A DNA stretch of 41,697 nt from an uncultured Methylibium sp. (GTDB lineage Bacteria; Pseudomonadota; Gammaproteobacteria; Burkholderiales; Burkholderiaceae_C): contig NZ_CADEFR010000030.1 in the NCBI RefSeq assembly GCF_902826655.1, forward strand, positions 1 to 41,697, read 5' to 3'. The first letter of the stretch is position 1. Every line of letters begins with the position of its first letter. Under the pieces are notes generated by a model. The model ran no database searches, was not told the origin of the DNA, and was given only the letters and a program-made list of their open reading frames with translations. Both the position numbers and the translations under genes were made by a program. Positions 26,256 through 41,697 of the stretch are shown piece after piece.

Positions 26256-27335
26256 TCAGGCTCCGAGGGGCAGGGTGATCGTGGCCAGGGTGCCACCGCC
26301 CGGCGCCGAAGCGAGCGTCAAGGAGGCGGCGTCGCCGTAGAGCGTGGCGAGCCGTTCGCGCACCTGGGTCGTGCCGAAGCCGGTGCCGGCCGACGCCCGT
26401 GCCGCCTCCAGGCCGATGCCGGTGTCGTGCACGCTCAGGTGCAGGCGGTCGCCGTCGCGCCAGGCCCGCAGCGCGATGCGGCCGCCGGGGCGGTGCGGCT
26501 CGATGCCATGCTGGATCGCGTTCTCGAGCAGCGGCTGCAGCAGCAGCGGCGGCACCGGCTGCGCGGCCAGCTCCGGCGGCAGGTCCAGCGTGCTGGCCAG
26601 CCTGTCGCCCAGGCGCACCTGCATCAGCGCCAGGTAGTCGGCACTGCGCTCGAACTCGGCCGCCAGCGGGTGCAGCGAGGCGCGGCTCGCCGCCAGCGTG
26701 CTGCGCAGGAAGGCGATCAGGTGGTCCAGCATCGCCTGCGCCCGCGGCGGGTCGAGCGCGATCAGCGCACGCAGGTTGGCCAGGGTGTTGAACAGCATGT
26801 GCGGCTCGAGCTGCGATTCCAGCAGCTTGAGCTGGGTGTCGGCCGCGAGGCGCTGCGCCGCCTCGGCCCGGGCCTGGGCCGAAGCCAGGCGTCCGCGCAT
26901 CCAGAAGAAGGCCGTCGCGATGCAGGCGACCGTCAGGCTGATCGTCAACGAGGCCACCGCGGAGGCGGCGCTGCCGAACTTCCAGGGCATCGGCAGGCCC
27001 TTGCCGCTGAGCGCGTTGCCGATGCTCGCGCCCAGCGTGTAGCCGGCCGTCGTGCCGAACACGATCACGACGCTCATCCACGGCCAGCCGGGCCAGCGGC
27101 CCGCGGCATGCCCGTGTCGGGCCTGCCACCGCCATGCCCAGTCCGGGGCGATGCGCCGGCCGCCCTCGATCAGGCCCAGGCAGCTCATGCCGATGGCGAA
27201 CGAGTACACCAGATTGGCCGCCAGGTCGCGCCCGCCGCGCAGCCCGGTGAGGACGAGCGCGACGCCCAGGCACATCAGCACCCCGAGGATCAGGGTGCGC
27301 TTCAGGTCGTCGACGGCGGGGGCGGTGGGAGCCAT
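26256..27335 (-). CDS. LytS-type sensor histidine kinase (His_kinase/PF06580)
   Basis: The 359-aa protein has about four hydrophobic segments in its first 145 residues (about 12-30, 40-55, 86-105, 125-147), then a short coiled coil (SAQARAEAAQRLAADTQLKL) leading to the phosphoacceptor His179 in ESQLEPHMLFNTLANLRAL. The ATPase domain shows the N box PLLENAIQHGIEPHRPGG (Asn272) and the G1 box 'VHDTGIGLEAARA' with 'GFGTTQVRERLATLYG'. This is the typical kinase partner of LytTR regulators such as AlgR/FimS or LytS. No extracytoplasmic sensor loop of size is present, so the signal is probably sensed in the membrane. The start at 27335 is a plain ATG without a strong ribosome-binding site. Confidence 0.94.
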   Translation of the reverse strand: MAPTAPAVDDLKRTLILGVLMCLGVALVLTGLRGGRDLAANLVYSFAIGMSCLGLIEGGRRIAPDWAWRWQARHGHAAGRWPGWPWMSVVIVFGTTAGYTLGASIGNALSGKGLPMPWKFGSAASAVASLTISLTVACIATAFFWMRGRLASAQARAEAAQRLAADTQLKLLESQLEPHMLFNTLANLRALIALDPPRAQAMLDHLIAFLRSTLAASRASLHPLAAEFERSADYLALMQVRLGDRLASTLDLPPELAAQPVPPLLLQPLLENAIQHGIEPHRPGGRIALRAWRDGDRLHLSVHDTGIGLEAARASAGTGFGTTQVRERLATLYGDAASLTLASAPGGGTLATITLPLGA

Positions 27336-27382
27336 GGGCGTGAAGGTCGTGGTGCTCGGGGGGACTCGGGGTTGGGGCCGGC

Positions 27383-27796
27383 TCACATCCACCCCAGCCA
27401 ATCGTGCCAGACCAGCATGCCGAGCCGGCGCGTCGGCAGCAGCGAGAACAGCGCGGCGATCACGACGCCGTTGTACGCGAACAGGATGGCCCGGCGGTGC
27501 GCCCTGATGTTGCGGCGCGAGATGTGCCACATCGCCATCGCGATGCCGCCGACGGTCAGCACCACCAGCAAGTGCACGGGCGTGTAGCCGGCGATGTTGG
27601 GCAGGCGGTAGTCGCGGATCGCCATGGCAGACAACGCCGCGCCCAGCATCAGCGTCACCCAGGCATAGCCGGTGGCACGGTGCCAGCGGCTGCCCTTGCG
27701 GATCAGCATCGCGACCGGCCCCAGGACCAGGGCGGCCAGCGCCAGCACCAGGTGGACGGCGATCAGCGGCGGCATGTGGGTGAGGGTGCTGGGCAT
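27383..27796 (-). CDS. DUF2306 membrane protein
   Basis: The 137-aa protein has four membrane segments (about 10-30, 42-62, 68-90, 108-130). The markers are HLVLALAALVLGPVAMLIRK, 'WHRATGYAWVTLMLGAA' with its conserved His-Arg, and 'NIRAHRRAILFAYNGVV', typical of DUF2306 proteins whose function is unknown, though the conserved His and Arg suggest a cofactor- or heme-like site (inference). AGGAG precedes ATG 27796. It is the first gene of a unit with the histidine kinase (47-base gap) and response regulator, so it may be the sensory partner of the kinase. Confidence 0.9.
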   Translation of the reverse strand: MPSTLTHMPPLIAVHLVLALAALVLGPVAMLIRKGSRWHRATGYAWVTLMLGAALSAMAIRDYRLPNIAGYTPVHLLVVLTVGGIAMAMWHISRRNIRAHRRAILFAYNGVVIAALFSLLPTRRLGMLVWHDWLGWM

Positions 27797-27933
27797 GTCG
27801 GGCTCCTGGAAGGCGGGATCGCTCCCGATGGCCGGCATCGTCGGGCGCCGGCCCGGGCCGGCCCAGCGGCATGCGACGGCCGGCATCCCGGCGTCGCCGG
27901 ATGCGCCGGACGCGGCGCGAGATGCGGCCCGGG

Positions 27934-28079: not shown

Positions 28080-28388
28080 GTGAATTCGCCCGCTCAAGCC
28101 CTGCGGCCCGATGCCGGCGCCCCGGCCGGGCAGTCCGCGCCCGAGCGCGAGCTCGCCGAACTGCTGGTCCAGGCGCTGAACCTCGAGGTCGCCCCGGCCG
28201 AGATCGACCCCACCGCGCCGCTGTACGGCGACGGCCTGGGCCTGGACTCGATCGACATCCTCGAGGTCGCGCTCGAGGTCTCGCGGCGCTACGGCTTCCA
28301 GCTGCGTTCGGACGACGAGAACAACGTCGTCATCTTCCAGTCGCTGCGCAGCCTGGCGGCCCACGTGGCCCAGCACCGCACGCTGTAA
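28080..28388 (+). CDS. Acyl carrier protein of the polyene cluster
   Basis: The 102-aa protein has an N-terminal Pro/Ala-rich extension (about 1-22) and a carrier-protein fold (about 23-100). The 4'-phosphopantetheine attachment site is Ser57 in GDGLGLDSIDILEVALEV, preceded by 'DPTAPLYGDGL', the pattern of aryl-polyene carrier proteins (ApeE/ApeF type). In these systems it carries the aryl starter and the growing polyene chain. It is the only carrier protein in the cluster; most have two. The start is GTG. It overlaps the next gene by one base (TAATG), the first of a series of coupled junctions. Confidence 0.93.
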   Translation: MNSPAQALRPDAGAPAGQSAPERELAELLVQALNLEVAPAEIDPTAPLYGDGLGLDSIDILEVALEVSRRYGFQLRSDDENNVVIFQSLRSLAAHVAQHRTL

Positions 28389-29017
28389 TGCCCGACTGGC
28401 GTCTGGTCCTCGGGCTGCTGGCGGCAGCGGCCTACGCCTTGCTCTCGCACGGGCTGATGCTCCATGCGGCGGACCGCCCCTGGGCCGTGGCCGCGTTGCT
28501 GGGTCCGCTGCTGCTGGCCGGCCTGGGCTTCGCGCTGAAGCGCCGCAACCTGCCGGCCGTGGCGCTGATGCTGCTGGCCGGCGCCGGCCTGCTGGTGGCG
28601 GTGGCGCGCGGCGGCATCGGCCCGGTCAACCGGCTCTACGTCGCCCAGCACGTGGGCATCCATCTGGCGCTGTGCGCGAGCTTCGGCCTGACCCTGTGGC
28701 GCAGCCCGCTGTCGCTGATCGGGCAGATCGCACAGCGCGTGCACGGCAGCATCACGCCGGCCATGGTGGCCTACACGCGCCGCGTGACCGCCGTCTGGAC
28801 CGGTTACTTTGTCGGCATGGCGCTGCTGTCCCTGTGGGTCTACGCGAACCACTCGTGGGACAGCTGGTCGCTGCTGGCCAACCTGATCACGCCGCTGGCG
28901 ATCGGCGGCCTGTTCGTCGGCGAATACCTGCTGCGCTACCGCCTGCATCCGGAGTTCGAGCGCAGCACGCTGATGAGTGCGGTGCGCGCCTACAGCCGGC
29001 CGCGGACCATCCCCTGA
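28388..29017 (+). CDS. COG4648 inner-membrane protein of the polyene cluster
   Basis: The 209-aa protein has five or six membrane segments (about 6-25, 32-50, 55-72, 82-105, 137-160, 165-190). It matches the COG4648 membrane proteins that follow the carrier-protein genes in aryl-polyene clusters (ApeG-like). The pattern VNRLYVAQHVGIHLALCASF with 'GSITPAMVAYTRRVTAVWTGYF' is typical. The biochemical role is not known; it may hold the biosynthesis enzymes at the membrane. It is joined by one-base overlaps to both neighbours (TAATG and TGATG). Confidence 0.9.
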   Translation: MPDWRLVLGLLAAAAYALLSHGLMLHAADRPWAVAALLGPLLLAGLGFALKRRNLPAVALMLLAGAGLLVAVARGGIGPVNRLYVAQHVGIHLALCASFGLTLWRSPLSLIGQIAQRVHGSITPAMVAYTRRVTAVWTGYFVGMALLSLWVYANHSWDSWSLLANLITPLAIGGLFVGEYLLRYRLHPEFERSTLMSAVRAYSRPRTIP

Positions 29018-30396
29018 TGGACACCACGCTGCCGCTGCTGGCCGCGGTCGATCTCGACGCCCCGGTCGCGTGGCGGCAGGGCGAGGCGATCAGCGCACGG
29101 CGCTTCCTGGCCGATGCGCGCGCCGAGTCCGCCCGCCTGCCCGGTGCCGGCCCGATGGTCAACCTGTGCGGCGACCGCTACCGCTTCGCCGTCGGCCTGG
29201 GCGCGGCGCTGATGCGCGGCCACACCAGCCTGCTGCCGCCGAACGCGCTGCCCGACACGCTGGCGCGGCTGCGCGGCGCGCACGCCGGCCTGTACGGCTA
29301 CACCGACGACGCGGCACTGGCCGTGACCGGCCTGCCGATGCTGCAGGCGGCCCCCATGACGCCGGACGCAGCGACGGACGCAGCGACGGACGCGACGATC
29401 CCCCGCCTGGCCGCCGACCTGCAGGCCGCCTGCCTGCTGACGTCCGGCTCGACCGGCCAGCCCCAGCCGCATGCCAAGACCTGGGGCCAGATCGTCGTCA
29501 ACATCCGCGCCGAGGCCGAGCGCCTGGCCGACTTCCTGGAGCGGCCGACGCTCGCCGGCGTGAACCTCGTCGCCACCGTGCCGGCCCAGCACAGCTACGG
29601 CTTCGAGTCCAGCGTGCTGCTGGCCCTGCTGGGCGGCGCGGCCTTCGACAGCGGCCGGCCCTTCTACCCCGCTGACGTGGCCGCGGCCCTGGCCCGCCTG
29701 CCGCGCCCGCGCATGCTGGTGACGACGCCCTTCCACCTGAAGACGCTGCTGCTGTCCGAGGTGGCGTTGCCGCCCACCGACCTGGTGCTGTGCGCGACGG
29801 CGCCGCTGTCGCCGCAGCTGGCGCTGCAGGCCGAGCGTGTGTTCGGCGGCCCGCTGGTCGAGATCTACGGCTGCACCGAGGCCGGCCAGGTCGCGACCCG
29901 CCGCACCGTGCACGGCGAGACCTGGCGCACCTTCGGCGCGCTGCGCCTGAAGCGCGAGACCGACGGCGCGCAGGAGCGCTTCATCGTCGAGGGCGGCCAC
30001 GTGGCGGAGCCGACGCCGCTGTCCGACGTGCTGCAGCTCGAGAGCGCCCAGCGCTTCCGGCTGCTGGGCCGTGCCAACGACCTGATCCACGTGGCCGGCA
30101 AGCGCAGCTCGCTGGCTCACCTGAACCACCATCTCAACAGCATCGACGGCGTGGTCGACGGCGCCTTCTGGATGCCCGACGAGGTGGCCGACGGCATCGT
30201 GCGGCCGATCGCCTTCGTCGTGGCGCCGGGCCTGGGCGCGGCGCAGCTCGTCGCGGCGCTGCGCGAACGCCTCGAGCCGCAGTTCGTGCCGCGGCGCATC
30301 GTGCACGTCGACGCGCTGCCGCGCGAGGCGACCGGCAAGCTCACGGCCGAGTCGCTGCGCCGCTTCGCGCTCGAGAAGCTGGGAGCGGTCTCGTGA
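29017..30396 (+). CDS. AMP-dependent starter-unit ligase (ApeH-like)
   Basis: The 459-aa protein is an adenylate-forming enzyme (PF00501-like). The AMP-binding loop is LLTSGSTGQPQPHAKTW (141-157), followed by 'VPAQHSYGFESSVLLAL', the A5 motif 'EIYGCTEAGQVATR', A7/A8 'GRANDLIHVAGKRSSL', and the C-terminal catalytic lysine in REATGKLTAESLRRF. In aryl-polyene systems the corresponding enzyme activates an aromatic acid such as 4-hydroxybenzoate and loads it on the carrier protein; the exact acid here is inference. It is shorter than usual acyl-CoA ligases (about 500-550), as ApeH types are. A DNA triplet repeat codes for the segment (DAAT)2DAT at about 117-126. It overlaps the next gene by four bases (GTGA). 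Confidence 0.9.
   Translation: MDTTLPLLAAVDLDAPVAWRQGEAISARRFLADARAESARLPGAGPMVNLCGDRYRFAVGLGAALMRGHTSLLPPNALPDTLARLRGAHAGLYGYTDDAALAVTGLPMLQAAPMTPDAATDAATDATIPRLAADLQAACLLTSGSTGQPQPHAKTWGQIVVNIRAEAERLADFLERPTLAGVNLVATVPAQHSYGFESSVLLALLGGAAFDSGRPFYPADVAAALARLPRPRMLVTTPFHLKTLLLSEVALPPTDLVLCATAPLSPQLALQAERVFGGPLVEIYGCTEAGQVATRRTVHGETWRTFGALRLKRETDGAQERFIVEGGHVAEPTPLSDVLQLESAQRFRLLGRANDLIHVAGKRSSLAHLNHHLNSIDGVVDGAFWMPDEVADGIVRPIAFVVAPGLGAAQLVAALRERLEPQFVPRRIVHVDALPREATGKLTAESLRRFALEKLGAVS
29365..29397 (+). repeat. 12-bp tandem repeat inside the ligase gene
   Basis: GACGCAGCGACG occurs at 29365-29376 and 29377-29388, then a shortened copy GACGCGACG to 29397. It encodes DAATDAATDAT in a linker before the AMP loop. 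Being in frame, changes in copy number would vary the linker without frameshift. Confidence 0.8.
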
Positions 30397-30713
30397 GCGT
30401 GCCCGTGCTGCGCGTCGACCGCGAGATCGCGGCCGACCATCCGGCCTTCGCCGGGCACTTTCCGGGGCGGCCGCTGCTGCCCGGCGTGCTGCTGCTGGCC
30501 GAGGTGATGGAGGTGCTGGCCGCACACCCCGCGCTGGCGGCCCGCGTCGGACCGCGGCCGACGCTGAACGCCGCCAAGTTCTTCGCGCCGGTCGGCCCCG
30601 GCAGCCGGATCAGCGTCGAGCTGCACGACGAGCCGCGCGGCCTGCGCTTCGAGATCCTGCGCGGCGAGGTGCTGGCGGCGACCGGCCAGTTCGCGCCGGT
30701 CGCGCCCGCATGA
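30393..30713 (+). CDS. FabZ/FabA-like hotdog protein (ApeI-like dehydratase)
   Basis: The 106-aa protein is a single small hotdog domain. The dehydratase motif AFAGHFPGRPLLPGVLLLAE contains the conserved His22 and 'FPGxPLLPG' of FabZ. A companion acidic residue (Glu37 in LLLAEVME) lies in the helix where FabA/FabZ use Asp or Glu. It probably takes part in the 3-hydroxyacyl dehydration of the polyene together with the larger ApeP-like gene at 38362. It is shorter than FabZ (about 140), as ApeI types are. Start GTG overlaps the ligase stop (GTGA); its stop overlaps the acyltransferase start (ATGA). Confidence 0.9.
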   Translation: MSVPVLRVDREIAADHPAFAGHFPGRPLLPGVLLLAEVMEVLAAHPALAARVGPRPTLNAAKFFAPVGPGSRISVELHDEPRGLRFEILRGEVLAATGQFAPVAPA

Positions 30714-31672
30714 AGCCCGCCGCCGCACCGCCGCCCGCGGCCGCCGCCGCGGGGGCCGCGGACTGGTCGCAGGCGCCCGAGCGCAGCAACGCCTTCGCGC
30801 TGCGCGTGATGAGCTGGATCGCGCTGCGTTGCGGGCGTCGCGTCGCGCGCTGGGTGCTGCATCCGATCACGCTGTACTTCGTGCTGTTCGCGCCCGGTCC
30901 GCGCCGCCAGTCGCGGCGCTACCTCGGCCGCGCGCTCGGCCGCGAGGCCGGCTGGATCGACGGCTACCGCCAGGTCTTCGCCTTCGCGTCGACCATCCTC
31001 GACCGCGTCTACTTCCTCGGCGACCGCATGGACCTGTTCGACGTGCGCGTGGTCGGTGCCGAACAGGTCGACGTGGCGCTCGAAGCCGGCCGCGGCGCCT
31101 TCCTCGTCGGGGCGCATGCCGGCAGCTTCGAGGCGCTGCACGTGGTCGGCCGTCACCACGCCGGCCTGCGCATCGCGATGGTCATGTACCCCGACAACGC
31201 GCGCCTGATCAACGCCGCGCTGGCGGCGGTCGCGCCGCACTACCGGCCCGCGATCATCCCGCTGGGCCGCATGGACTCGATGCTCGCGATCCGCGACTGG
31301 CTCGACGCCGGCGGACTGGCCGGCATGCTGGCCGACCGCTCCCTGCCCGAGGCCGATGCGGCGCGCAGCGGCCAGCACACGCTGCCCTTCCTGGGCCGGG
31401 ACGCGGTCTTCGCCGATGGCCCGTTCCGCCTGGCCCTGCTGCTGAAGCGGCGCGTCTTCTTCATGGCCGGCCTCTACCTCGGCGGCAGGCGCTACGAGGT
31501 GCGCATCGAGCCGCTGGCCGACTTCAGCACGCCGACCGGTGGCGCGGCCGAGCGCGAACGACTCATCGCCGACGCGCTGGGGGCCTACGTGCAACGACTC
31601 GAGGCGCTGTGCCGCGAGCATCCGTACAACTGGTTCAATTTCCATGACTTCTGGCGCGAAGATGGGGCCTGA
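30710..31672 (+). CDS. LpxL-like lysophospholipid/lipid acyltransferase
   Basis: The 320-aa protein is of the LpxL/HtrB lauroyltransferase type. The catalytic motif HX4E is His136-Glu141 in LVGAHAGSFEALHVVGRH; further markers are 'MVMYPDNARLIN' and 'GGLAGMLADRSLPEA' plus 'LPFLGRDAVFADGPFRLALL', the glycine-rich second block. A hydrophobic segment at about 48-62 can anchor it to the inner membrane. In aryl-polyene clusters such enzymes (ApeK/ApeJ-type) attach fatty acyl groups or the polyene to the lipid anchor. The N-terminus is Ala/Pro-rich. It begins in a four-base overlap with the hotdog gene and overlaps the LolA-like gene by 11 bases. Confidence 0.92.
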   Translation: MKPAAAPPPAAAAAGAADWSQAPERSNAFALRVMSWIALRCGRRVARWVLHPITLYFVLFAPGPRRQSRRYLGRALGREAGWIDGYRQVFAFASTILDRVYFLGDRMDLFDVRVVGAEQVDVALEAGRGAFLVGAHAGSFEALHVVGRHHAGLRIAMVMYPDNARLINAALAAVAPHYRPAIIPLGRMDSMLAIRDWLDAGGLAGMLADRSLPEADAARSGQHTLPFLGRDAVFADGPFRLALLLKRRVFFMAGLYLGGRRYEVRIEPLADFSTPTGGAAERERLIADALGAYVQRLEALCREHPYNWFNFHDFWREDGA

Positions 31673-32270
31673 GATCGCGCGGCGCGAGCTCGCGCGCGGC
31701 CTGGCGGCCTGCCTGCTGCTGCCGCTGACCGGCGGCGCGCAAGCCTTCGACCTGCCCGAGCTGATGAGCCTGCTGGCGCGGCGCAAGAGCGGCGAGGCGC
31801 GCTTCACCGAGCAGCGTTTCGTGCAGGGCTTCGACGCGCCGCTGGAGTCGAGCGGCACGCTGGCCTTCACCGCGCCCGACCGCTTCGAGCGCCGAACGCT
31901 GCAGCCGCGCGCCGAGGCGATGGTGGTCGACGGCAACACGCTCACGCTGACGCGCAGCGGCCGCAGCCGCCAGCTGGTGCTCGACGCGACGCCCGAACTG
32001 CAGCCGCTGGTCGAGGCGCTGCGCGGCACGCTCAGCGGCAACGGCGCGGTGCTGTCGCGCTACTTCCGCAGCGCGCTTTCGGGCAGCGCGGAGCAGTGGA
32101 CGCTGGAGCTGCGCCCGTTGCAGACGCGCATCGGCGAGTCGCTGCGCAGCCTGCGCCTGGCCGGGCGGCGCGACGAGCTCGTGCGCGTGGAGATGGACTT
32201 CGCCGGCGGCGACCGGTCGGTGATGACCATCGTGCCGCGGGCCGCGCCCGGCCCGGCCTCGTCGCCGTGA
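31662..32270 (+). CDS. LolA-like outer-membrane lipoprotein carrier (ApeM-like)
   Basis: The 202-aa protein has a signal peptide (about 1-30, ending TGGAQAF) and a LolA-type half-barrel domain (about 32-190): LLARRKSGEARFTEQRFVQG, 'LESSGTLAFTAPDRFERRTL' and 'GNTLTLTRSGRSRQLVL'. LolA-like proteins ferry lipid-modified molecules through the periplasm; in the polyene clusters they accompany the MMPL pump. The start at 31662 overlaps the acyltransferase end by 11 bases; an ATG at 31644 six codons upstream is an alternative, neither with a strong ribosome-binding site. The end overlaps the exporter gene (GTGA). Confidence 0.9.
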   Translation: MGPEIARRELARGLAACLLLPLTGGAQAFDLPELMSLLARRKSGEARFTEQRFVQGFDAPLESSGTLAFTAPDRFERRTLQPRAEAMVVDGNTLTLTRSGRSRQLVLDATPELQPLVEALRGTLSGNGAVLSRYFRSALSGSAEQWTLELRPLQTRIGESLRSLRLAGRRDELVRVEMDFAGGDRSVMTIVPRAAPGPASSP

Positions 32271-34681
32271 CGCCGGCCTCGTCACCGCGCGCGCGCGGCG
32301 CGGCGGCGCTGCTGCTGTGGCTCGCCGTCATGGGCATCGCCGTGCTGGTGATCGCCCGCGGCCGCTTCGACACCGACCTCTCGGCCTTCCTGCCGGCGCG
32401 GCCCGACGCGCAGCAGCGCCTGCTGATCGAGCAGCTGCAGGACGGCGTCGCCGCGCGCACGCTGCTGGTCGGCATCGAGGGCGGCGATGCGGCGCAGCGC
32501 GCCGCCGCCTCGCGCCAGCTGGCCGCGGCGATGCGTGCGAGCGGGCGCTTCGAGCAGGTGCAGAACGGAGACCGAGGCGGCGAACGCGACGCCGCCGGCG
32601 ACGAGCTCGCGGCCAGCGCCGACTGGGTCGTCGCGCACCGCTACCAGCTCAGCCCCGCGGTCAATGCCGAGCGCTACAGCGTCGCCGGCCTGCGCGACGC
32701 GATCGACGAGACGCTGTCGCTGCTGGGCACACCGGCCGGGCAGGCGGTGAAGCCGCTGCTCGAACGCGACCCGACCGGCGAGACGCAGCGCATCGTCGAG
32801 GGCCTGATCCCGTCGAGCGCGCCGCGCAGCGAAGAGGGCGTCTGGGTCGGCCGCGGCACGCCGCGCGCGCTGCTGCTGGCGATGACCCGCGCGCCCGGCG
32901 CCGACCTCGACGCGATGCAGGCCAGCATCGCGGTCATCCGCGGCGCCTTCGAGGCGCAGACGACAGCGGACGCGCCGGCCTTGACGCTGCAGCTCAGCGG
33001 GCCGGGCGTGTTCTCGGTGCTGAGCCGCGAGCGCATCGAGCGCGAGGTCAAGCAGCTCGCCGCTGTCGGCGTGCTGGTGATGGGCGGCCTGCTGCTGCTG
33101 GCCTTTGCGTCGCTGCGTGCGCTGGGCGTCGCGATGCTGCCGGTGCTGACCGGCATCGCCTTCGGCGTGGCCGCGGTGATGCTGGCCTTCGGCAGCGTCC
33201 ACGGCATCACGCTGGCCTTCGGCAGCACGCTGATCGGCGAGGCCGTCGACTACGCGATCTACTACCTGATCCAGGCCCGGCCGCGGTCGGCCGCCGACCC
33301 TGCCGGGAGCGGCTGGCGCCACTGGCGCGACGACAACTGGCCCACCGTGCGGCTGGGCCTGCTGACCTCGGTGTGCGGCTTCGCGGCGCTGCTGTTCTCG
33401 GGTTTCCCGGGTCTGGCGCAGCTGGGCGCGTTCTCGGTGGCCGGGCTGTGCGGCGCAGCGCTGGCGACGCGCTGGCTGCTGCCGCAGCTGCTGCCCGACG
33501 GCGCCGGTGCGTCCGGCCTGCGCGCATCGCTGGGCCGCATCGCCGGCCGGCCGCTGCGCGCGCTGCCGCGCTGGCGGCCGCTGTTCCTGCTGCTCGGCGT
33601 GGTCGCGGCGCTGCTGCTGGTGCTGCGCGAGGCGCCGCTGTGGCGCGGCGACCTCGGCTCGCTCAGCCCGGTGCCGCGGTCGCAGATCGAGCTCGACGAA
33701 TCGCTGCGCGCCGACCTCGGCGCCGGCGACGCGCGCACGCTGGTGGTGGCCACCGCGCCGGACCCGCAGGCCGCGCTGCGTGCCGCCGAAGCGGCGTCTG
33801 CGCGGCTCGACGCGCTGGTGGCGCAAGGCCTGCTGGCCGGCTACGAGACGCCGACGCGCATCCTGCCCAGCATTGTGACCCAGCAGGCGCGCCTGGCCAG
33901 CCTGCCCGACGCCGACCTGCTGCGCGCCCGGCTGGCCGAGGCGACCGCCGGCGGGCCGCTGAAGGCCGAGCGGCTGCAGCCCTTCATCGCCGAGGCGCAG
34001 GCGGCGCGCGGCGCCCCGCCGGTCGCGCGTGCCGACCTGCCGCCCGGTCCGCTGGCGACCGCGGTCGACGCCCAGCTGGTGCCGCGCACCGGCGGCGGCT
34101 GGTCGGTGCTCATGCCCCTGACGGCGCCGCCCGGGGCGGTGGACGGCGTCGACACGCCGCGCGTGCGCGAGGCACTGCGCGGTCTGGACGGGGTCGACGC
34201 GATCGACATCGGCGGTGCGCTGCGCGGGCTCTATGCGAACTACCTGCACGAAGCCTTCGTGCAGGCCGCGCTCGGCGCGCTGGCCGTCGTGGCGCTGCTG
34301 GCGGCCTGGCTGCGGTCGGGCCGCCGCCTGCTGGCCGTGTGCCAGCCGCTGGCGCTGGCGCTGCTGCTCACGCTCGGCGGCCTGGCGTTGTTCGACGTGG
34401 CGCTCGGCATCCTGCACCTGGTCGGGCTGCTGCTGGTCGTTGCGGTCGGCTCCAACTACGCGCTGTTCTTCGACCAGCTTGGCGGCGCCGCGTCGGCCGA
34501 CGACGACACGCTGGCCTCGCTGCTGCTGGCCAACCTCACGACGGTGGCGTCGTTCGGGCTGATCGCGCTGTCGGAGATCCCGGCGCTGTCGGCCATCGGC
34601 CGGGTGGTCGCGCCGGGCGCGCTGCTGGCGCTGCTGCTGTCGGCGGCGTTCGCCTCGACCCCTCGCCCGGGTATGCGCTGA
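32267..34681 (+). CDS. MMPL/RND-family exporter (ApeN-like)
   Basis: The 804-aa protein is an RND-superfamily exporter with the normal duplicated plan: a first membrane helix (about 12-30), a periplasmic domain (about 35-245), five helices (about 250-420), a helix at about 440-460, a second periplasmic domain (about 460-660), and a closing five-helix group (about 665-800). Markers are 'LPARPDAQQRLLIEQLQDG' and 'GITLAFGSTLIGEAVDYAIY', and 'VAVGSNYALFFDQLGG', the fourth-helix motifs with Asp used in proton relay. It likely exports the polyene-lipid across the inner membrane with the LolA-like carrier. The start is GTG, overlapping the LolA stop. The polyene cluster is broken after it by an 81-base gap. 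Confidence 0.93.
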   Translation: MTPASSPRARGAAALLLWLAVMGIAVLVIARGRFDTDLSAFLPARPDAQQRLLIEQLQDGVAARTLLVGIEGGDAAQRAAASRQLAAAMRASGRFEQVQNGDRGGERDAAGDELAASADWVVAHRYQLSPAVNAERYSVAGLRDAIDETLSLLGTPAGQAVKPLLERDPTGETQRIVEGLIPSSAPRSEEGVWVGRGTPRALLLAMTRAPGADLDAMQASIAVIRGAFEAQTTADAPALTLQLSGPGVFSVLSRERIEREVKQLAAVGVLVMGGLLLLAFASLRALGVAMLPVLTGIAFGVAAVMLAFGSVHGITLAFGSTLIGEAVDYAIYYLIQARPRSAADPAGSGWRHWRDDNWPTVRLGLLTSVCGFAALLFSGFPGLAQLGAFSVAGLCGAALATRWLLPQLLPDGAGASGLRASLGRIAGRPLRALPRWRPLFLLLGVVAALLLVLREAPLWRGDLGSLSPVPRSQIELDESLRADLGAGDARTLVVATAPDPQAALRAAEAASARLDALVAQGLLAGYETPTRILPSIVTQQARLASLPDADLLRARLAEATAGGPLKAERLQPFIAEAQAARGAPPVARADLPPGPLATAVDAQLVPRTGGGWSVLMPLTAPPGAVDGVDTPRVREALRGLDGVDAIDIGGALRGLYANYLHEAFVQAALGALAVVALLAAWLRSGRRLLAVCQPLALALLLTLGGLALFDVALGILHLVGLLLVVAVGSNYALFFDQLGGAASADDDTLASLLLANLTTVASFGLIALSEIPALSAIGRVVAPGALLALLLSAAFASTPRPGMR

Positions 34682-34705
34682 ACGCTGCCCTTTGGGGCAT
34701 GTGGG

Positions 34706-34711
34706 AAAATT
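34706..34711 (+). promoter_or_regulatory. Candidate internal promoter element (AAAATT)
   Basis: The only sizeable gap in the cluster (34682-34762) contains the AT-rich patch GGGAAAATTCTGCC, whose AAAATT could be a -10 box, 51 bases before the deacetylase gene. It may drive the second half of the cluster. Confidence 0.35.
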
Positions 34712-34762
34712 CTGCCTGCAGTCCCCATCCCCGCGGCCCGCTGGCCGGTCCGCATCCCCCGA

Positions 34763-35602
34763 ATGTCCGTCGCCACCTCTTCCGGCAGCCCGTGGACCAT
34801 GCCGCCGCTGCTGCGTGCCAGCTTCGGCCTGCACGCGCTGGCCGCCGGCGCCGCAGTGGCCGTGCCCGACGCGGCGCCCTGGGCCCTGGGCAGCGTCGTC
34901 GCCAACCACGCGGCGCTCACCGCCGCCGGCCTGTGGCCGCGCAGCCGCTGGCTCGGCCCCAACGTCACGCAGCTGCCGGCCGGCCGTGCCGCGCGCGGCG
35001 AGATCGCGCTGACCATCGACGACGGTCCCGACCCCGAGGTCACGCCGCGCGTGCTGGACCTGCTGGACGCACAGGACGTGCGAGCCACCTTCTTCTGCAT
35101 CGCCGAACGTGCCCGCGAGCACGCGGCGCTGACGCGCGAGATCGTCGCGCGCGGCCACAGCGTGCAGAACCACAGCCTGGCGCATCGCCACAACTTCTCG
35201 CTGCTGGGGCCGCGCGGCTACGAGGCCGAGCTGTCGCGCGCCCAGCAGCTGCTGGCCGACCTGACCGGGCAGCGGCCGACCTGCTTCCGCGCGCCGGCCG
35301 GCCTGCGCAATCCCTTCCTCGACCCGGTGCTGCATCGCCTCGGCCTGCACCTGGTCAGCTGGACGCGGCGCGGCTTCGACACGCGCGAGCGCAGCGCCGA
35401 CCGCGTCCTCGCGCGCCTCACACAGCGGCTCGCGGGCGGCGACATCCTGCTGCTGCACGACGGCCACGCCGCACGCGCGGCCAGCGGCCGCCCGGTGCTG
35501 CTGGACGTGCTGCCGCTCCTGCTGGCGCAGGCCCGCGCCGCCGGGCTGCACTGGGTGACGCTGGCCGAGGCCTTGCCGCCGCGCGGCACCGCATCCGCAT
35601 GA
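34763..35602 (+). CDS. Polysaccharide deacetylase (NodB) family protein
   Basis: The 279-aa protein has a hydrophobic N-terminus (about 20-55, perhaps two membrane segments) and a NodB domain (about 78-270). The catalytic metal site is visible as IALTIDDGPDPEVTP (Asp86/Asp87) and NHSLAHRH (His137, His141), then 'CFRAPAGLRNP' and the final 'GDILLLHDGHAA'. Such enzymes remove N- or O-acyl groups from glycans. Its place in a polyene cluster suggests it deacylates a sugar or lipid on the final product, but this is inference. It has its own upstream gap and possible promoter, then overlaps the methyltransferase start (ATGA). Confidence 0.93.
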   Translation: MSVATSSGSPWTMPPLLRASFGLHALAAGAAVAVPDAAPWALGSVVANHAALTAAGLWPRSRWLGPNVTQLPAGRAARGEIALTIDDGPDPEVTPRVLDLLDAQDVRATFFCIAERAREHAALTREIVARGHSVQNHSLAHRHNFSLLGPRGYEAELSRAQQLLADLTGQRPTCFRAPAGLRNPFLDPVLHRLGLHLVSWTRRGFDTRERSADRVLARLTQRLAGGDILLLHDGHAARAASGRPVLLDVLPLLLAQARAAGLHWVTLAEALPPRGTASA

Positions 35603-36405
35603 ACGGACCCGACTTCACCCGGCTCGCGCCGGCCGCTGCCACCGCCACCGCCGCGGTCGACGAGGACAGCGCCTGGCACCACCTGCGCGACGCCGCGGCC
35701 GAGCCCTACCGCAGCGCCGGTCGCTTTGCCTGGCACTTCGCGCGCGGCAAGCTGGGCCGCGACCCGGTGTTCCGTGCGCTGGTCGAGCGCGGCGACCTGT
35801 CGCAGCAGGCCCGCGTGCTGGACATCGGCTGCGGACAGGGGCTGCTGGCCAGCCTGCTGGCGGCCGCCAGTGCGCAGCAGGCCGGCGGGCGCTGGCCGAT
35901 GTCCTGGCCGATGGCACCGGGTGCGGTGCACTACACCGGCATCGAGCTGATGCCGCGCGACATCGCCCGCGCGCAGTCGTCGCTGCGGGGGCTGCAGCCG
36001 CTGCCGCAGTTCGCCTGCGCCGACATGCGCGAGGCCGCGCTGCCGCCGTGCGACGCGGTCGTGATCCTGGACGTGCTGCACTACGTCGACCACGCCAGCC
36101 AGGAGAACGTGCTCGGCCGCGTCCGCGAGGCCCTGCGCGCCGGCGGGTCGGCGCGCGCGCGCCTGCTGCTGCGCGTCGGCGACGCCGCCGATCGCCGCGG
36201 CTACGCCGTCAGCCAGTGGGTCGATCGCTGGGTCACGCGCGTGCGCGGCCATGGCGTCGCGCCGACCTGGGGCCGGCGGCTCGACGACTGGATCGCCCTG
36301 CTGGTGCGCCTGGGCTTCGCGGTCCAGACGCTGCCGATGAGCCGCGGCACGCCGTTCGCGAACGTGCTGCTGGTGGCGGAGTTGCGGGACGGGGTGGCGT
36401 CGTGA
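35599..36405 (+). CDS. SAM-dependent methyltransferase
   Basis: The 268-aa protein is a class I methyltransferase. The AdoMet-binding motif I is ARVLDIGCGQGLLASLL (71-87); 'YTGIELMPRDIARAQ' holds the acidic residue that binds the ribose, 'ADMREAALPPCDAVVILDVL' is motif II/III, and 'VREALRAGGSARARLLLRV' follows. Some aryl polyenes are methylated on the ring oxygen or carbon; this enzyme is the likely candidate. An insertion at about 93-110 (PMSWPMAPGAVHY) is unusual in length but not diagnostic. It begins in a four-base overlap with the deacetylase gene and ends in one with the synthase. Confidence 0.92.
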   Translation: MNGPDFTRLAPAAATATAAVDEDSAWHHLRDAAAEPYRSAGRFAWHFARGKLGRDPVFRALVERGDLSQQARVLDIGCGQGLLASLLAAASAQQAGGRWPMSWPMAPGAVHYTGIELMPRDIARAQSSLRGLQPLPQFACADMREAALPPCDAVVILDVLHYVDHASQENVLGRVREALRAGGSARARLLLRVGDAADRRGYAVSQWVDRWVTRVRGHGVAPTWGRRLDDWIALLVRLGFAVQTLPMSRGTPFANVLLVAELRDGVAS

Positions 36406-37586
36406 AGCCGCTCGCTGTCAGTGACTACACCGTGGTCTCGGCGCTCGGGGCGGGGCGCGATGCGACCGTCAGTGCGCTGCGCGAGGGCCGCAGCGGCCTC
36501 GCGCGCAAGCCCTTCGAGACCGTCGCGCTCGACACCTGGATCGGCGAGGTCGACGGCGTCGACGGGCAGCGGCTGCCGCCGGCACTGGCCGAGTTCGACT
36601 GCCGCAACAACCGGCTCGCGCTGCTGGGCCTGCAGGCCGACGGCTTCGCGGCCAGCGTGGCGGTCGCGCGTGAGCGCCTGGGCCCGCAGCGCATCGGCGT
36701 CTTCGTCGGCACCAGCACCTCGGGCATCCTGCAGACCGAGCTGGCCTACCGCCGCCGCGACCCGGCGACCGGCGCGCTGCCGGCCGACTTCCGCTACGCG
36801 CAGACCCACAACACCGGGTCGGTCGCGGCCTTCGTGCGCCAGGCGCTCGACTTGCGCGGCCCGGCCGTCGTCGTGTCGACCGCCTGCTCGTCCAGCGCCA
36901 AGGTCTTCGGCAATGCGGCGCGGATGATCGCGCTGGGCCTGATCGACGCGGCCGTGGTCGGCGGCGTCGACAGCCTGTGCCTCACCACGCTCTACGGCTT
37001 CAACTCGCTCGAGCTGCTGTCGCCCGACATCTGCCGGCCCTGGGATGCCGCACGGCGCGGCCTCTCGCTGGGCGAGGCCGCGGCCTTCGCGCTGCTGGAG
37101 CGCGACGCGACGCGGCCGCGCGCCTGGCTGCGCGGCGTCGGCGAAAGCAGCGACGGCCACCACATGAGCAGCCCGCACCCCGAAGGCGCCGGCGCCGCCG
37201 AGGCGATGCGCGGCGCGCTGGCCGATGCGGGCGTCGGCCCCGAGGCCATCGACTACCTCAACCTGCACGGCACCGCCACGCCGAACAACGACGCCGCGGA
37301 AGACCTGGCGGTGCAGGCCGTGTTCGGCGAACGCCTGCCCTGCAGCTCGACCAAGGGCGCGACCGGCCACACGCTGGGCGCGGCCGGCGGCGTCGAGGCG
37401 GCGATCGCGATGCTGGCGCTGGAACACGGCTTCATGCCCGGCGGCCTGAACCGCCAGCAGCCCGACGACGCATTGCGCAGCCGCTATCTCGACGCAGGCC
37501 GCGAGGCGCCGCTGGCGATGGTGGCCAGCAACTCCTTCGGCTTCGGCGGTTCCAACGCCTGCCTCGTGTTCGGGGTGGCGCCGTGA
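36402..37586 (+). CDS. Beta-ketoacyl synthase (full ketosynthase of the cluster)
   Basis: The 394-aa protein is a FabF-like ketosynthase with an intact catalytic triad: Cys162 in VVVSTACSSSAKVF, His289 in LNLHGTATPNNDAAED, and His323 in STKGATGHTLGAAGG with Lys318. It condenses malonyl units with the carrier-bound chain. It corresponds to the ApeO-type synthase. The shorter, half-length synthase gene follows directly, which suggests a heterodimer of synthase and chain-length factor. The start is GTG, overlapping the methyltransferase stop (GTGA); its own stop overlaps the next GTG. Confidence 0.95.
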   Translation: MKPLAVSDYTVVSALGAGRDATVSALREGRSGLARKPFETVALDTWIGEVDGVDGQRLPPALAEFDCRNNRLALLGLQADGFAASVAVARERLGPQRIGVFVGTSTSGILQTELAYRRRDPATGALPADFRYAQTHNTGSVAAFVRQALDLRGPAVVVSTACSSSAKVFGNAARMIALGLIDAAVVGGVDSLCLTTLYGFNSLELLSPDICRPWDAARRGLSLGEAAAFALLERDATRPRAWLRGVGESSDGHHMSSPHPEGAGAAEAMRGALADAGVGPEAIDYLNLHGTATPNNDAAEDLAVQAVFGERLPCSSTKGATGHTLGAAGGVEAAIAMLALEHGFMPGGLNRQQPDDALRSRYLDAGREAPLAMVASNSFGFGGSNACLVFGVAP

Positions 37587-38365
37587 TCGCGGTCAGCGTC
37601 GCGGGCATCGGGCTGCTGGGGCCTGGCCTGCCCGACTGGGCGTCGGGCCGGGCCTTGCTGAGCGAACCGGCGGACTGGCGCTTCACGCCGACCGCGCTGC
37701 CGTCGCCGATGCGGCTGCCGCCGGCCGAGCGCCGCCGCGCCGGCGCGATCGTGAAGGTGTCGCTCGCGGTGGCCGACCAGGCCTGCGCCCAGGCCGGCGT
37801 CGATCCGGCCCGGCTGGCGACGGTGTTCACCGCGTCCAGCGGCGACGCCGGCAACTGCCACGCGCTGTGCGAGTCGCTGGCGACGCCGGAGCGCGCCGTG
37901 TCGCCGACGCGCTTCACCAACTCGGTCCACAACGCCGCGGCCGGCTACTGGCACATCGCGACCGTGAGTCGCGCCCCGTCGACCAGCCTGTGCGCGCACG
38001 ACGCCAGCTTTGGGGCCGGCCTGCTGGAAGCCGCCGCGCAATGCGTCGCGCAGGCGCGCCCGGTGCTGCTGGTGGCGGCCGACGTGCCCTATCCCGAGCC
38101 GCTGCACAGCGCGCGGCCGCTGCCCGATGTCTTCGGCGTGGCCTTGCTGCTGACGCCGGCTTCGGACGCGGCGCCTCGACTGCGCATCAGCCTGGCCGAG
38201 GCCGCGCCCGGCACCTGCGGCCACGACGGGCTGGATGCGCTGATGCGCCAGGTGCCTGCCGCGCGCAGCCTGCCGCTGCTGCAGGCGCTGGCGCGTGGGG
38301 CGTCGACCCGGCGGGTGATCGACTACCTCGATCCGCTGGGGCTGGCGGTGGAGCTGCAAGCGTGA
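37583..38365 (+). CDS. Half-length ketosynthase-like protein (chain-length-factor type)
   Basis: The 260-aa protein matches PF13723 (N-terminal ketosynthase-like), present in aryl-polyene clusters as ApeC. The N-terminal half of a thiolase fold is visible (VAGIGLLGPGLPDWASGRAL, 'TSLCAHDASFGAGLLEAAAQ'), and the C-terminal catalytic half with the two histidines of an active synthase is missing. A cysteine (137) occurs at the position of the nucleophile, but without the histidines it is unlikely to condense on its own. In related systems it pairs with the full synthase and sets chain length. Linked by GTGA overlaps to both neighbours. Confidence 0.92.
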   Translation: MIAVSVAGIGLLGPGLPDWASGRALLSEPADWRFTPTALPSPMRLPPAERRRAGAIVKVSLAVADQACAQAGVDPARLATVFTASSGDAGNCHALCESLATPERAVSPTRFTNSVHNAAAGYWHIATVSRAPSTSLCAHDASFGAGLLEAAAQCVAQARPVLLVAADVPYPEPLHSARPLPDVFGVALLLTPASDAAPRLRISLAEAAPGTCGHDGLDALMRQVPAARSLPLLQALARGASTRRVIDYLDPLGLAVELQA

Positions 38366-38832
38366 GCAGTCCGGCCGTTCTTGATCGTGCCGGCATCGCT
38401 GCACGCATCCCGCATCACGGCCGCATGTGCCTGCTCGACCGCCTGGTCGGCTGGACGCCCGAGCGCATCGAGTGCCGCGCCCGCAACCACCGCGACGCCG
38501 ATCACCCGCTGCGCAGCGCCTCCGGGCTGCTGGCGCCCTGCGCGATCGAGTACGCGGCGCAGGCGATGGCGCTGCACGGTGGCCTGCTGGCGCCGCCGGC
38601 CGCGGGTGCGCGGCCCGGCTATCTGGCCAGCGTGCGCGGCGTGCGCCTCGCGGTCGCGCGGCTCGACGACATCGACGGCGAGCTGCAGGTCCGCGCCGAG
38701 CGTCTGGCCGGCGATGCGAACCAGGTGCTGTACGGCTTTGTCGTTGCGGACGAAGGCGGCCGCACGCTGGTCGAGGGGCGCGCCACGGTCGTGCTGAACA
38801 CGCCGCTGCCGCTGGAGGTGGCCACTCCATGA
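38362..38832 (+). CDS. ApeP-like 3-hydroxyacyl-ACP dehydratase
   Basis: The 156-aa protein is a hotdog dehydratase of the ApeP type. The motif IPHHGRMCLLDRLVGW (16-31) carries the catalytic His of the family, and the partner Glu is in LAPCAIEYAAQAMALHG, equivalent to the FabA/FabZ acidic residue. It probably dehydrates each 3-hydroxyacyl intermediate to the trans double bonds of the polyene. It differs from the smaller FabZ-like gene at 30393; the two may act at different chain lengths (inference). It overlaps both neighbours by four bases (GTGA and ATGA). Confidence 0.92.
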   Translation: MSSPAVLDRAGIAARIPHHGRMCLLDRLVGWTPERIECRARNHRDADHPLRSASGLLAPCAIEYAAQAMALHGGLLAPPAAGARPGYLASVRGVRLAVARLDDIDGELQVRAERLAGDANQVLYGFVVADEGGRTLVEGRATVVLNTPLPLEVATP

Positions 38833-39563
38833 GCAAGCCGCCGCGCCGGGCCCTCGTCACCGGCGCCAGCGGTGCGCTCGGCAGCGCGATCGCGCGGCGC
38901 CTGGCGGCCGACGGCTTCGCGCTCGTCCTGCATGCCAGCTCGCGGCCCGAGGCCGTGCAGGCGCTGGCGGCGGAGATCGCCGCGGCCGGCGGCCGCGCCG
39001 AGACCTGCGTCTTCGACGTCGCCGACGCGGACGCCGCCCGCGCGGCCTGCGAAGCGCTGCTGCTCGCAGGCCCGGTGCAGGTCATCGTCAACAACGCCGG
39101 CGTGCACGACGACGCCGTCTTCCCCGGCATGCGTGCGGCGCAGTGGCACCGCGTGATCGACGTGTCGCTGCACGGCTTCTTCCACGTGACCCAGCCGCTG
39201 CTGCTGCCGATGCTGCGCACGCGCTGGGGCCGCATCGTCAACGTCTCGTCGGTCGCGGCGCGCACCGGCAACCGCGGGCAGACCAACTACGGCGCTGCCA
39301 AGGGCGCGCTGGAGGCCGCGACGCGCTCGCTGGCGCTGGAAGTGGCGAGCCGCGGCGTCACCGTCAACGCGGTGGCGCCGGGCATCATCGCCTCGCCGAT
39401 GGCCGACGCGGTGTTCGACGCGCAGACCATCGCCCGGCTGGTGCCGCTGGGCCGTGCGGGCCGGGCGGAAGAAGTGGCCGACCTCGTCGGCTTCCTGGCT
39501 GGCGATGCCGCGGCCTACATCACCGGCCAGGTGCTGCCGATCAACGGCGGCATGACGCCATGA
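38829..39563 (+). CDS. FabG-like 3-ketoacyl-ACP reductase (ApeQ-like)
   Basis: The 244-aa short-chain dehydrogenase has the NAD(P) glycine motif TGASGALGSA (11-20), the NNAG motif (IVNNAGVHDD), and the catalytic Ser141, Tyr154 and Lys158 in NVSSVAARTGNRGQTNYGAAK read in parts. It reduces the 3-keto group after each condensation. Its length and motifs are those of FabG (about 245). In aryl-polyene clusters this is ApeQ. It is the last biosynthetic gene of the cluster and overlaps the antiporter gene by four bases (ATGA). Confidence 0.95.
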   Translation: MSKPPRRALVTGASGALGSAIARRLAADGFALVLHASSRPEAVQALAAEIAAAGGRAETCVFDVADADAARAACEALLLAGPVQVIVNNAGVHDDAVFPGMRAAQWHRVIDVSLHGFFHVTQPLLLPMLRTRWGRIVNVSSVAARTGNRGQTNYGAAKGALEAATRSLALEVASRGVTVNAVAPGIIASPMADAVFDAQTIARLVPLGRAGRAEEVADLVGFLAGDAAAYITGQVLPINGGMTP

Positions 39564-40870
39564 GCGGCGCACCCCCGTCGTCGCTGCACGCCACCGAGCA
39601 ACTGCTGTTCGCGATCCTGCTGCAGCTGGCCGTCATCGTGCTGGCCGCACGCGCCGGCGGTGCGCTGGCGCGGCGCTGCGGCCAGGCGGTGGTGGTCGGC
39701 GAGATCGTGGTCGGCATCCTGCTGGGGCCGTCGCTCTTCGGCGCGCTGGCGCCGGGGCTCTTCGAGCGCGTCGTCCTGTCGGCGCCGGCCCAGCCCATGG
39801 CCATCCTGTCGCAGATCGGCCTGCTGTTCCTGATGTTCCAGATCGGCATGGAGTTCGACTTCGGGCACCTGCGCGAGCGCACGCACCGGCGCGTGGTCGC
39901 CGCCGTCGCGACGGCCGGCGTCGTCGCGCCCTTCGTGCTGGGCATTGCGCTGGCGCTGGCCTGGCCGGAGAACCTGCGCACCGCCGCCGACCGCACGGCC
40001 TTCGCGCTCTTCATGGCGACCGCGTTCTCGATCACCGCGATGCCGGTGCTGGGCCGCATCCTGATGGAGTGCGACCTGACGAAGCGGCCGCTCGGCGTCA
40101 TCGCCATCAGCAGCGCCGCGGTCAGCGACGTGGTCGGCTGGCTGCTGCTGGCGCTGGTCACCAGCCTCGCCGTCGCCGGTGCGCTGAGCTGGGCGGTGGC
40201 CTGGCGCTTCCTCGGCGTGCTGGCCTTCGCGGCGCTGGCCTGGTGGGTCGCGCGGCCGCTCCTTCTGAAGCTGCTGCGCAGCACCGCCGGCCCGGAGGCG
40301 GGGCAGGGCGACCCGCTGCCGCCGACGCTGATGGGCGCGGTCATCGCGCTGGTCTGCCTGGCCGGCATGGCGACCTATCAGCTCGGCGTGTTCGCCATCT
40401 TCGGCGGCTTCGTGATGGGCGTGCTGCTGCATCGCGAGCGCGCCTTCGCCACGGCCTGGGACGAGCGCGTGGGCCGCTTCGTCAACTTCTTCTTCCTGCC
40501 GATCTACTTCACCTACACCGGGCTGCGCACCGACATCGGCGGGCTGTCCGGCGCCTCGGCCTGGGGCTGGTGCGCGCTGCTGATCGCGCTGGCGACGCTG
40601 GGCAAGTTCGGCGGCTGCTGGGCCGCGGCGCGCTGGGCCGGCCTGGACGGCACGCGCGCGCGCATCGTCGGCATCCTGATGAACACGCGCGGCCTGATGG
40701 AGCTGATCGTCGTCAACGTCGGCTACGACCTCGGCGTGATCGGCCGCGAGACCTTCACGATGCTGGTGCTGATGGCGATCGTCAGCACGGTGGTGACGAC
40801 GCCGCTGCTGCGGCGGTGGTTGGCGAGGCTGGAGGAGCGGGCGGTGCCGGGGGTAGTGGTGGCGCGCTAG
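39560..40870 (+). CDS. CPA2 family cation/proton antiporter
   Basis: The 436-aa protein has 12-13 membrane segments with the Kef/CPA2 plan: VVVGEIVVGILLGPSLFG near the N-terminus, LSQIGLLFLMFQIGMEFDF in the fourth helix, 'FSITAMPVLGRILMECDL' and 'SSAAVSDVVGWLLLALV', in which Ser-Asp-Val represent the ion-binding site, and 'ILMNTRGLMELIVVNVGYDL', a highly conserved closing motif. No TrkA-N domain follows, so it is a shorter type, exchanging Na+ or K+ for protons. It is translationally coupled to the FabG-like gene, which is unusual; whether it serves polyene export or pH control is unknown. Its stop lies just before the low-GC region. Confidence 0.94.
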   Translation: MSGAPPSSLHATEQLLFAILLQLAVIVLAARAGGALARRCGQAVVVGEIVVGILLGPSLFGALAPGLFERVVLSAPAQPMAILSQIGLLFLMFQIGMEFDFGHLRERTHRRVVAAVATAGVVAPFVLGIALALAWPENLRTAADRTAFALFMATAFSITAMPVLGRILMECDLTKRPLGVIAISSAAVSDVVGWLLLALVTSLAVAGALSWAVAWRFLGVLAFAALAWWVARPLLLKLLRSTAGPEAGQGDPLPPTLMGAVIALVCLAGMATYQLGVFAIFGGFVMGVLLHRERAFATAWDERVGRFVNFFFLPIYFTYTGLRTDIGGLSGASAWGWCALLIALATLGKFGGCWAAARWAGLDGTRARIVGILMNTRGLMELIVVNVGYDLGVIGRETFTMLVLMAIVSTVVTTPLLRRWLARLEERAVPGVVVAR

Positions 40871-40926
40871 CTGGAGCGGTGTTGGCGCGTCGAGCTGGAC
40901 TCGAGCCTTCCGGCGTGAGGTGGATG

Positions 40927-40977
40927 TGTCAACGAGACCGGTACAAGCTCCGGGTCCGCTTGAAGGAAGGGTCAGGC
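40927..40977 (-). other. attC-like sequence after the low-GC gene
   Basis: On the minus strand, starting at the stop codon of the low-GC gene, GCCTGAC (R''-like), five bases later CTTCAAGC (L''-like), then GGACCCGG, GCTTGTA (L'-like) and GTTGACA (R'-like) follow. The spacing and the CTTCAAGC box match integron attC left halves closely; the right half is degenerate. The first box overlaps the stop codon, as it often does in cassettes. Confidence 0.35.
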
Positions 40978-41634: not shown

Positions 41635-41639
41635 TGAGT

Positions 41640-41677: not shown

Positions 41678-41697
41678 TTTGGAGCGACGTGATGGCG

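Follow-up and report, generated by a model that had tools for sequence, protein, structure and literature searches.

The window analysed here, a contig of 41,697 nucleotides from an uncultured Methylibium sp. (NZ_CADEFR010000030.1, assembly GCF_902826655.1; contig C30 in the following), carries fourteen genes that very probably direct the synthesis and export of a yellow, light-protecting aryl-polyene (APE) pigment of the xanthomonadin kind. All fourteen open reading frames lie on the plus strand, from the GTG start of a carrier protein gene at 28080 to the stop codon of an antiporter gene at 40870, exactly where the initial annotation had placed them, and the locus is a real, probably complete and ordinary aryl-polyene cluster of the arc type. 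The GC content of this stretch is 73-76%, and the listing of open reading frames contains many overlapping long frames; since long frames commonly arise by chance at such a GC content, frame length by itself is weak evidence for a gene. That the fourteen frames are genes is concluded from three other lines of evidence: twelve of the products match families in profile searches (Pfam/NCBIfam), the remaining two (28388-29017 and 38362-38832) have tblastn homologues at the same positions in related clusters, and the gene order is conserved. The functional labels of the initial annotation can thus be kept for the products that match families, whereas that of the second dehydratase relies on its position and its relatives.

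Tight gene coupling is usual in such clusters. With the start codons chosen here (gene 4 could start at 30393 or 30399), twelve of the thirteen junctions overlap, as counted before, by one base (two junctions), four bases (nine) or eleven bases (one), and the only non-overlapping junction is an 81-base gap at 34682-34762, directly before the deacetylase gene. In four relatives, 9/11, 8/12, 9/12 and 8/13 junctions overlap by a generous count that takes the start codon nearest to the upstream stop, and overlapping frames have been reported in the APE cluster of E. coli (PMC8253772).

Ketosynthase, half-ketosynthase and ligase

The ketosynthase (KS) belongs to the PRK09185 kind (NF006618), whose cut-off it passes, and its gene is overlapped by four bases by a gene for a half-KS of the family PF13723. 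Among solved structures, the KS is closest to 6qsp_A and 7f28_B and the half-KS to 7f28_A and 6qsp_B, so that each of these two entries supplies one chain for either protein; we take 6qsp to be ApeO:ApeC of Xenorhabdus. The KS carries the sequences TACSSS, HGTA and TGHT, presumably its active-site motifs. In a tree of 88 rows, which leaves out three loci with frames below 300 amino acids (L080, L123 and L129), the window KS falls into a clade of 17 rows (100/92) together with rows from the same family, Variovorax, Methylococcus, Burkholderia and others. This clade is nested in one of 30 rows (100/99), which holds Lysobacter, Luteimonas and Pseudoxanthomonas and is joined by L074 as one extra row; the next set out comprises 23 rows (100/98) from APE-type loci of Pectobacterium, Huaxiibacter, Shewanella and others. 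The other half of the tree contains FabF rows, including the FabF of this genome, and Bacteroidota rows of the flexirubin type. In the ligase tree of 38 rows, 31 ligases from polyene-type loci, the window ligase among them, stand apart from seven ordinary ligases of this genome (100/100); for this outgroup, ten of 28 own-genome matches were tried and seven kept, and L155 (no open frame) as well as L154 and L160 (which did not pass a motif filter on either strand) were left out. Both trees place the window enzymes among polyene-type clusters, which bears out the aryl-polyene/xanthomonadin-type assignment proposed initially, and no grouping of synthase or ligase with non-polyene systems, the outcome that the initial annotation had named as refuting its proposal, was seen.

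The cluster includes an LpxL-type acyltransferase, a FabG-like reductase and a FabZ-like dehydratase, as might be expected of an ordinary fatty-acid or lipid-A-modification operon. This explanation is extremely unlikely: the KS scores above the PRK09185 cut-off but below that of FabF, a half-KS directly follows the KS in 28 of the 30 same-family loci fetched (the window included), and KS and ligase group with polyene-type clusters. A plain fatty-acid operon is rejected in the main by the two trees.

The half-KS corresponds to the truncated protein, similar to a chain-length factor, that PMC3691225 describes. It was compared with residues S120 and Q166 of Lysobacter ORF16, in which the exchange Q166A abolished pigment formation according to that paper. 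The window protein has S107 and Q153, which align with the Lysobacteraceae rows and, in the register deduced for ORF16, show the same spacing of 46 residues. Two relatives, L072 of Aquabacterium (4664-6585) and L049 (genome G053), possess a second KS/half-KS pair, 48% identical, beside the first, and its KS groups in the Xanthomonad-type clade.

Features of the window discussed in the text, with the evidence for each assignment
Product	Position	Strand	Evidence
LytTR response regulator, possible arcX counterpart	25464..26252	-	PF00072, PF04397
LytS-type histidine kinase, possible arcW counterpart	26256..27392	-	PF06580, PF02518
Acyl carrier protein (ACP), arcV-like, GTG start, GLDSIDI motif	28080..28388	+	PF00550; NF006617 131 bits, cut-off 70
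Membrane protein, arcU slot	28388..29017	+	tblastn relatives in arc- and APE-type loci
AMP-forming starter (hydroxybenzoate) ligase, arcT-like	29017..30396	+	PF00501, PF13193; ligase tree
Hotdog 3-hydroxyacyl-ACP dehydratase 1, arcS/ApeI-like	30393..30713	+	PF07977; FabZ-type, under FabZ cut-offs
LpxL-type acyltransferase, arcR-like	30710..31672	+	PF03279
LolA-like periplasmic carrier, arcQ	31662..32270	+	PF19574; weak flexirubin LolA2 match (NF053544), below cut-off
MMPL/RND exporter, arcP	32267..34681	+	PF03176; weak HpnN-like match, below cut-off
NodB-type polysaccharide deacetylase, arcN	34763..35602	+	PF01522 101 bits; alignment; TIDDGPD and HSLAH present
S-adenosylmethionine-dependent methyltransferase, arcM	35599..36405	+	PF13649 and related
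Ketosynthase, arcK/ApeO/Lysobacter ORF17 type	36402..37586	+	NF006618 543 bits, cut-off 407; tree
Half-ketosynthase, truncated chain-length-factor-like, arcJ/ApeC/Lysobacter ORF16	37583..38365	+	PF13723; 7f28_A, 6qsp_B
Putative hotdog dehydratase 2, arcI/ApeP-like	38362..38832	+	same-slot conservation in relatives
FabG-type 3-ketoacyl-ACP reductase, arcH/ApeQ	38829..39563	+	PF13561; NF004200 331 bits, cut-off 273
CPA2 cation:proton antiporter, arcG	39560..40870	+	PF00999 176 bits

Some of these assignments can be refined by comparison with relatives. The carrier protein aligns with the carriers of the Pectobacterium and Huaxiibacter loci. Homologues of the membrane protein occupy the same slot in other loci (46% identity in L051, 36% in L081), enterobacterial APE-type loci included, and we take it to be ApeG/COG4648. 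For dehydratase 1, FabZ chains are the top matches among solved structures and 6qsr_A follows with an E value of 0.0017, whereas the match of dehydratase 2 to 6qsr_B (E 0.16) ranks behind an unrelated chain (E 0.016) and is not significant. The sequences TIDDGPD and HSLAH of the deacetylase are presumably its functional motifs.

Gene order and the starter genes

The initial annotation had regarded the gene order, with a deacetylase and an antiporter included, as different from known clusters, a claim that has to be given up in view of the arc (arcuflavin) loci of Azoarcus sp. BH72, azo0253-0264 and azo3910-3921, published in 2014 (PMC3949708). In Table 1 of that paper, the first locus comprises arcM (methyltransferase), arcN (PS-deacetylase), arcO, arcP (exporter), arcQ (lolA), arcR (acyltransferase), arcS (dehydratase), arcT (ligase), arcU, arcV (ACP), arcW (kinase) and arcX (regulator), and the second arcL, arcK (ketosynthase), arcJ (half-KS), arcI (dehydratase), arcH (reductase), arcG (Na+/H+ antiporter), arcF, arcE (glycosyltransferase), arcD (acyltransferase), arcC (outer membrane protein), arcB (XanB2) and arcA (halogenase). 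The order in the window equals arcV-U-T-S-R-Q-P-N-M followed directly by arcK-J-I-H-G, with deacetylase and antiporter in the slots of arcN and arcG; because the arc loci list the same gene kinds in the same order, a novel gene order is rejected. The two runs are separate in Azoarcus and fused into one in the window, which thereby joins two loci that are unlinked in Azoarcus. The arcO listed for Azoarcus has no counterpart between the exporter and deacetylase genes of the window. Both systems have a kinase and a regulator close to the ACP, whereas a DUF2306 gene between kinase and ACP is found in the window only. According to PMC3949708, the pigment was lost when either Azoarcus locus was interrupted by insertion, ArcB produced both 3- and 4-hydroxybenzoic acid (3-HBA and 4-HBA), and ArcT was active on 3-HBA in vitro.

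Arcuflavin, to which the closest published order belongs, is a polyene-dialkylresorcinol hybrid (PMC3949708), and the window might likewise contribute to a flexirubin/arcuflavin-type hybrid, an ester of the polyene acid with a dialkylresorcinol whose synthesis is encoded at another place in the genome. This is very unlikely, as the matches to DarB (NF005293) in this genome, a draft of 142 contigs in which DarA was not searched, are at the level of FabH, with a best score of 53 bits against a cut-off of 450. The same-genus genome G060 likewise has FabH-level matches; among the eight genomes searched, G074 passes the cut-off and G069 reaches 328 bits. The hybrid is rejected within the limits of that search, and since DarB matches are at FabH level only, a plain polyene is expected rather than a dialkylresorcinol ester.

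Other known systems are less similar in organisation. The cluster of Lysobacter enzymogenes OH11, as described in the main text of PMC3691225, shares with the window KS and half-KS (ORF17/16), ACP, reductase, two dehydratases, acyltransferase, outer-membrane carrier protein, exporters and the XanB2-type ORF5, but it is organised differently; that text does not contain the words deacetylase and antiporter and states that a methyltransferase is missing. Genes were also matched across titled loci (the best 80 of 577 relatives, to which all statements on listed loci refer) by tblastn with the window proteins at E 1e-4, a threshold at which small or divergent genes may escape; in this comparison the Lysobacteraceae loci L066, L071 and L073 are without the deacetylase slot, unlike the window. 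The APE clusters of E. coli CFT073 and Xenorhabdus doucetiae have in common with it ACP, KS with the partner ApeC, ApeI and ApeP, reductase, the RND exporter ApeM, the Lol-like ApeL and ApeN and the COG4648 membrane protein ApeG, as far as described in PMC8253772. According to the same description, the E. coli cluster contains two ACPs and three ketosynthases (ApeC, O and R), with ApeC far from the core, whereas the cluster in the window has one ACP and a single full KS, which the half-KS adjoins. With one ACP, one full KS and a KS outside the APE clade, the window differs from the E. coli/Xenorhabdus subtype. The Bacteroidota flexirubin-type locus L096 has matches to the deacetylase, the glycosyltransferase and the MMPL protein, but its KS lies in a distant clade and it contains DarB and the flexirubin LolB2.

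The genes for the starter unit are found at the start of contig C20, where glycosyltransferase, acyltransferase, MipA, XanB2 and FAD halogenase genes, corresponding to arcE-D-C-B-A, are followed by a UbiE-type methyltransferase gene. The XanB2-type chorismatase (C20:3185-3553, 139.8 bits) is the sole PF21168 match in the genome, and the set has the Azoarcus order, here on another contig than the fused cluster. In G060, one stretch contains a glnS-like gene, a small gene, the genes from ACP through deacetylase and those from KS to reductase (L045 11009-15000, in which the deacetylase gene overlaps the KS gene by four bases), and this cluster is directly adjoined by the convergent glycosyltransferase-to-halogenase set. 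The genes beyond resemble those of C20, except for an RND-type pair in G060; the flanking genes of G060, C20 and the window (glnS and small gene; ATPase, YebC, purD and hemF) were compared by eye from translations. From this arrangement, C30 and C20 were probably neighbours. The window and the leading 16 kb of C20 have no end word of 21, 33, 55, 77, 99 or 127 bases in common. The last 55 bases of the window recur with 84-100% identity at five other places (the right end of C20, C57, C100, C36 and C96), and the start of C6 carries a copy, 95% identical, of the left 63 bases of C20.

A contig break at repeats, which parts the locus from its starter genes, and genes just upstream of the cluster that differ from those in G060 would be compatible with a cluster that is silent or has decayed and yields no pigment. 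We consider this improbable: KS, half-KS, deacetylase, dehydratase 1 and carrier protein retain residues that are conserved in relatives, all fourteen frames are open, and so are the XanB2 and halogenase frames on C20 (open throughout).

Distribution and variable genes

In a sample of 150 same-family genomes, this one included, 40 have a KS that scores above the NF006618 cut-off. Among the 30 same-family loci fetched, the deacetylase gene precedes the KS gene in 22, either directly (nine) or with the methyltransferase gene between them (13); the exporter gene directly precedes it in three, and five show neither arrangement. At least 23 titled loci have a KS with more than 50% identity, and twelve of these belong to the KS clade of the window. 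A deacetylase before the KS or the methyltransferase occurs in all twelve clade loci and in 0/11 of the others above 50% identity. The run from carrier protein to reductase is present in seven of the twelve (L051, L052, L055, L057, L058 with a 1-kb gap before the KS, L059 and L062); the other five stop at a contig border, are broken up or rearranged, or have one gene under the threshold. Much of the cluster order thus recurs in Variovorax, Methylococcus and other Proteobacteria. XanB2 and halogenase matches also accompany a xanthomonadin-type cluster in L067, a contig binned as Candidatus Planktophila (Actinomycetota), which is due to either misbinning or transfer.

The antiporter gene follows the reductase gene in three of the twelve clade loci (L052, L058 and L072). 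In a follow-up set of 24 of the 39 other genomes above the KS cut-off, mostly from the top of the list, it occupies its slot about 2.1 kb past the KS in five, with 55-61% identity, and antiporter matches elsewhere in these 24 genomes (E 1e-20 or better) are at most 36% identical. The antiporter is therefore a recurrent though optional cluster gene. XanB2 was found in 16 of the 24 relatives, in ten of them no more than 10 kb from the KS.

Several observations weigh against the assignment of the locus to the arc-type pigment clusters, or limit it. Both trees were built without an experimentally verified row from Azoarcus or L. enzymogenes, and the comparison with Azoarcus is one of gene order and annotation, not of aligned sequences. 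The membrane protein and dehydratase 2 match no Pfam or NCBIfam family. All homologues are said in PMC3691225 to share the glutamine Q166, but its equivalent is missing in L051 of Variovorax and in two enterobacterial rows of the alignment, so this residue is a weaker mark than stated there. The starter genes lie on a different contig and, as contigs break at repeats, their linkage in this genome is deduced from the synteny with G060 only. G060 has neither the methyltransferase nor the antiporter gene, which suggests that these two tailoring genes were gained or lost within one genus; among the listed clade loci, the methyltransferase was found in just four of twelve (L051, L056, L058 and L072), and XanB2 was not found in eight of the 24 relatives with this KS, nor in G018. 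In view of the losses in G060 and of the relatives without XanB2, methyltransferase, antiporter and XanB2 are not constant parts of the cluster. Finally, the pigment of this strain is a prediction from its genes.

Predicted pathway and neighbouring genes

Gene identities, motifs, order and phylogenetic placement were observed, as was a second locus that holds the starter genes; from these we infer the chemical steps below and what deacetylase, glycosyltransferase and antiporter may do. The XanB2-type chorismatase encoded on C20 would provide 3-hydroxybenzoate (and 4-hydroxybenzoate), which the ligase, whose substrate is presumed to be hydroxybenzoate by likeness to ArcT, would load onto the carrier protein. 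KS and half-KS would then elongate the starter with malonyl units, and the reductase and the two dehydratases would leave a double bond in each round; the cluster contains no enoyl reductase. The methyltransferase may cap the ring hydroxyl, yielding a methylated aryl polyene acid. One or both acyltransferases, the glycosyltransferase and the deacetylase are predicted to attach the polyene to an envelope lipid or glycolipid, and the MMPL protein and the LolA-like carrier would bring it to the outer membrane. There, the pigment would protect against light and peroxide, with photoprotection as reported for Lysobacter in PMC3691225. The Azoarcus pigment was inferred in PMC3949708 to be non-brominated despite the presence of arcA, and bromination can therefore not be predicted here from the halogenase.

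Deacetylase matches with 28-38% identity also occur in seven of 19 listed loci of the Bacteroidota KS clade (L084, L086, L096, L102, L103, L109 and L111; flexirubin genes were checked in L096 alone), a distribution more in keeping with lipid anchoring than with polyene synthesis as its function. It is tempting to speculate that deacetylase and antiporter are dedicated pigment genes: the GT2 glycosyltransferase and the acyltransferases might build the arc-type product on a lipid that bears N-acetylhexosamine, the deacetylase might de-N-acetylate it to a free-amine glycolipid, and export by the MMPL protein might be coupled to the cation/proton exchanger. We regard this proposal as rather unlikely as it stands; if true, it would set the arc products apart, as a subtype of polyene glycolipid, from dialkylresorcinol esters as well as from free xanthomonadin acids. 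Since both genes recur in fixed slots, their roles can be tested by single-gene deletion.

Upstream of the cluster, genes for a LytTR response regulator, a LytS-type kinase and a DUF2306 protein (25464-27838, minus strand) separate the carrier protein gene from a small gene (24994-25398). In G060, no match to any of the three was found at this place, where a similar small gene directly adjoins the carrier protein gene. Kinase homologues (46-55% identity) exist in 14 of the 24 relatives, and only that of G098 is near the KS; it is 50% identical, 9.5 kb away and in cluster direction, not divergent as in the window. The pair is thus rejected as a conserved part of the cluster, and that it corresponds to arcW/arcX is a possibility suggested mainly by the Azoarcus table.

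Past the antiporter gene (40871-41697), the GC content falls to about 49-59%, and a minus-strand frame at 40972-41658, which has no Pfam match, extends almost to the contig end. Elsewhere in this genome, C10:50621-54407 shows KS and AMP-binding matches in frames of 2177 and 1627 amino acids, which suggests a modular polyketide synthase/nonribosomal peptide synthetase locus.

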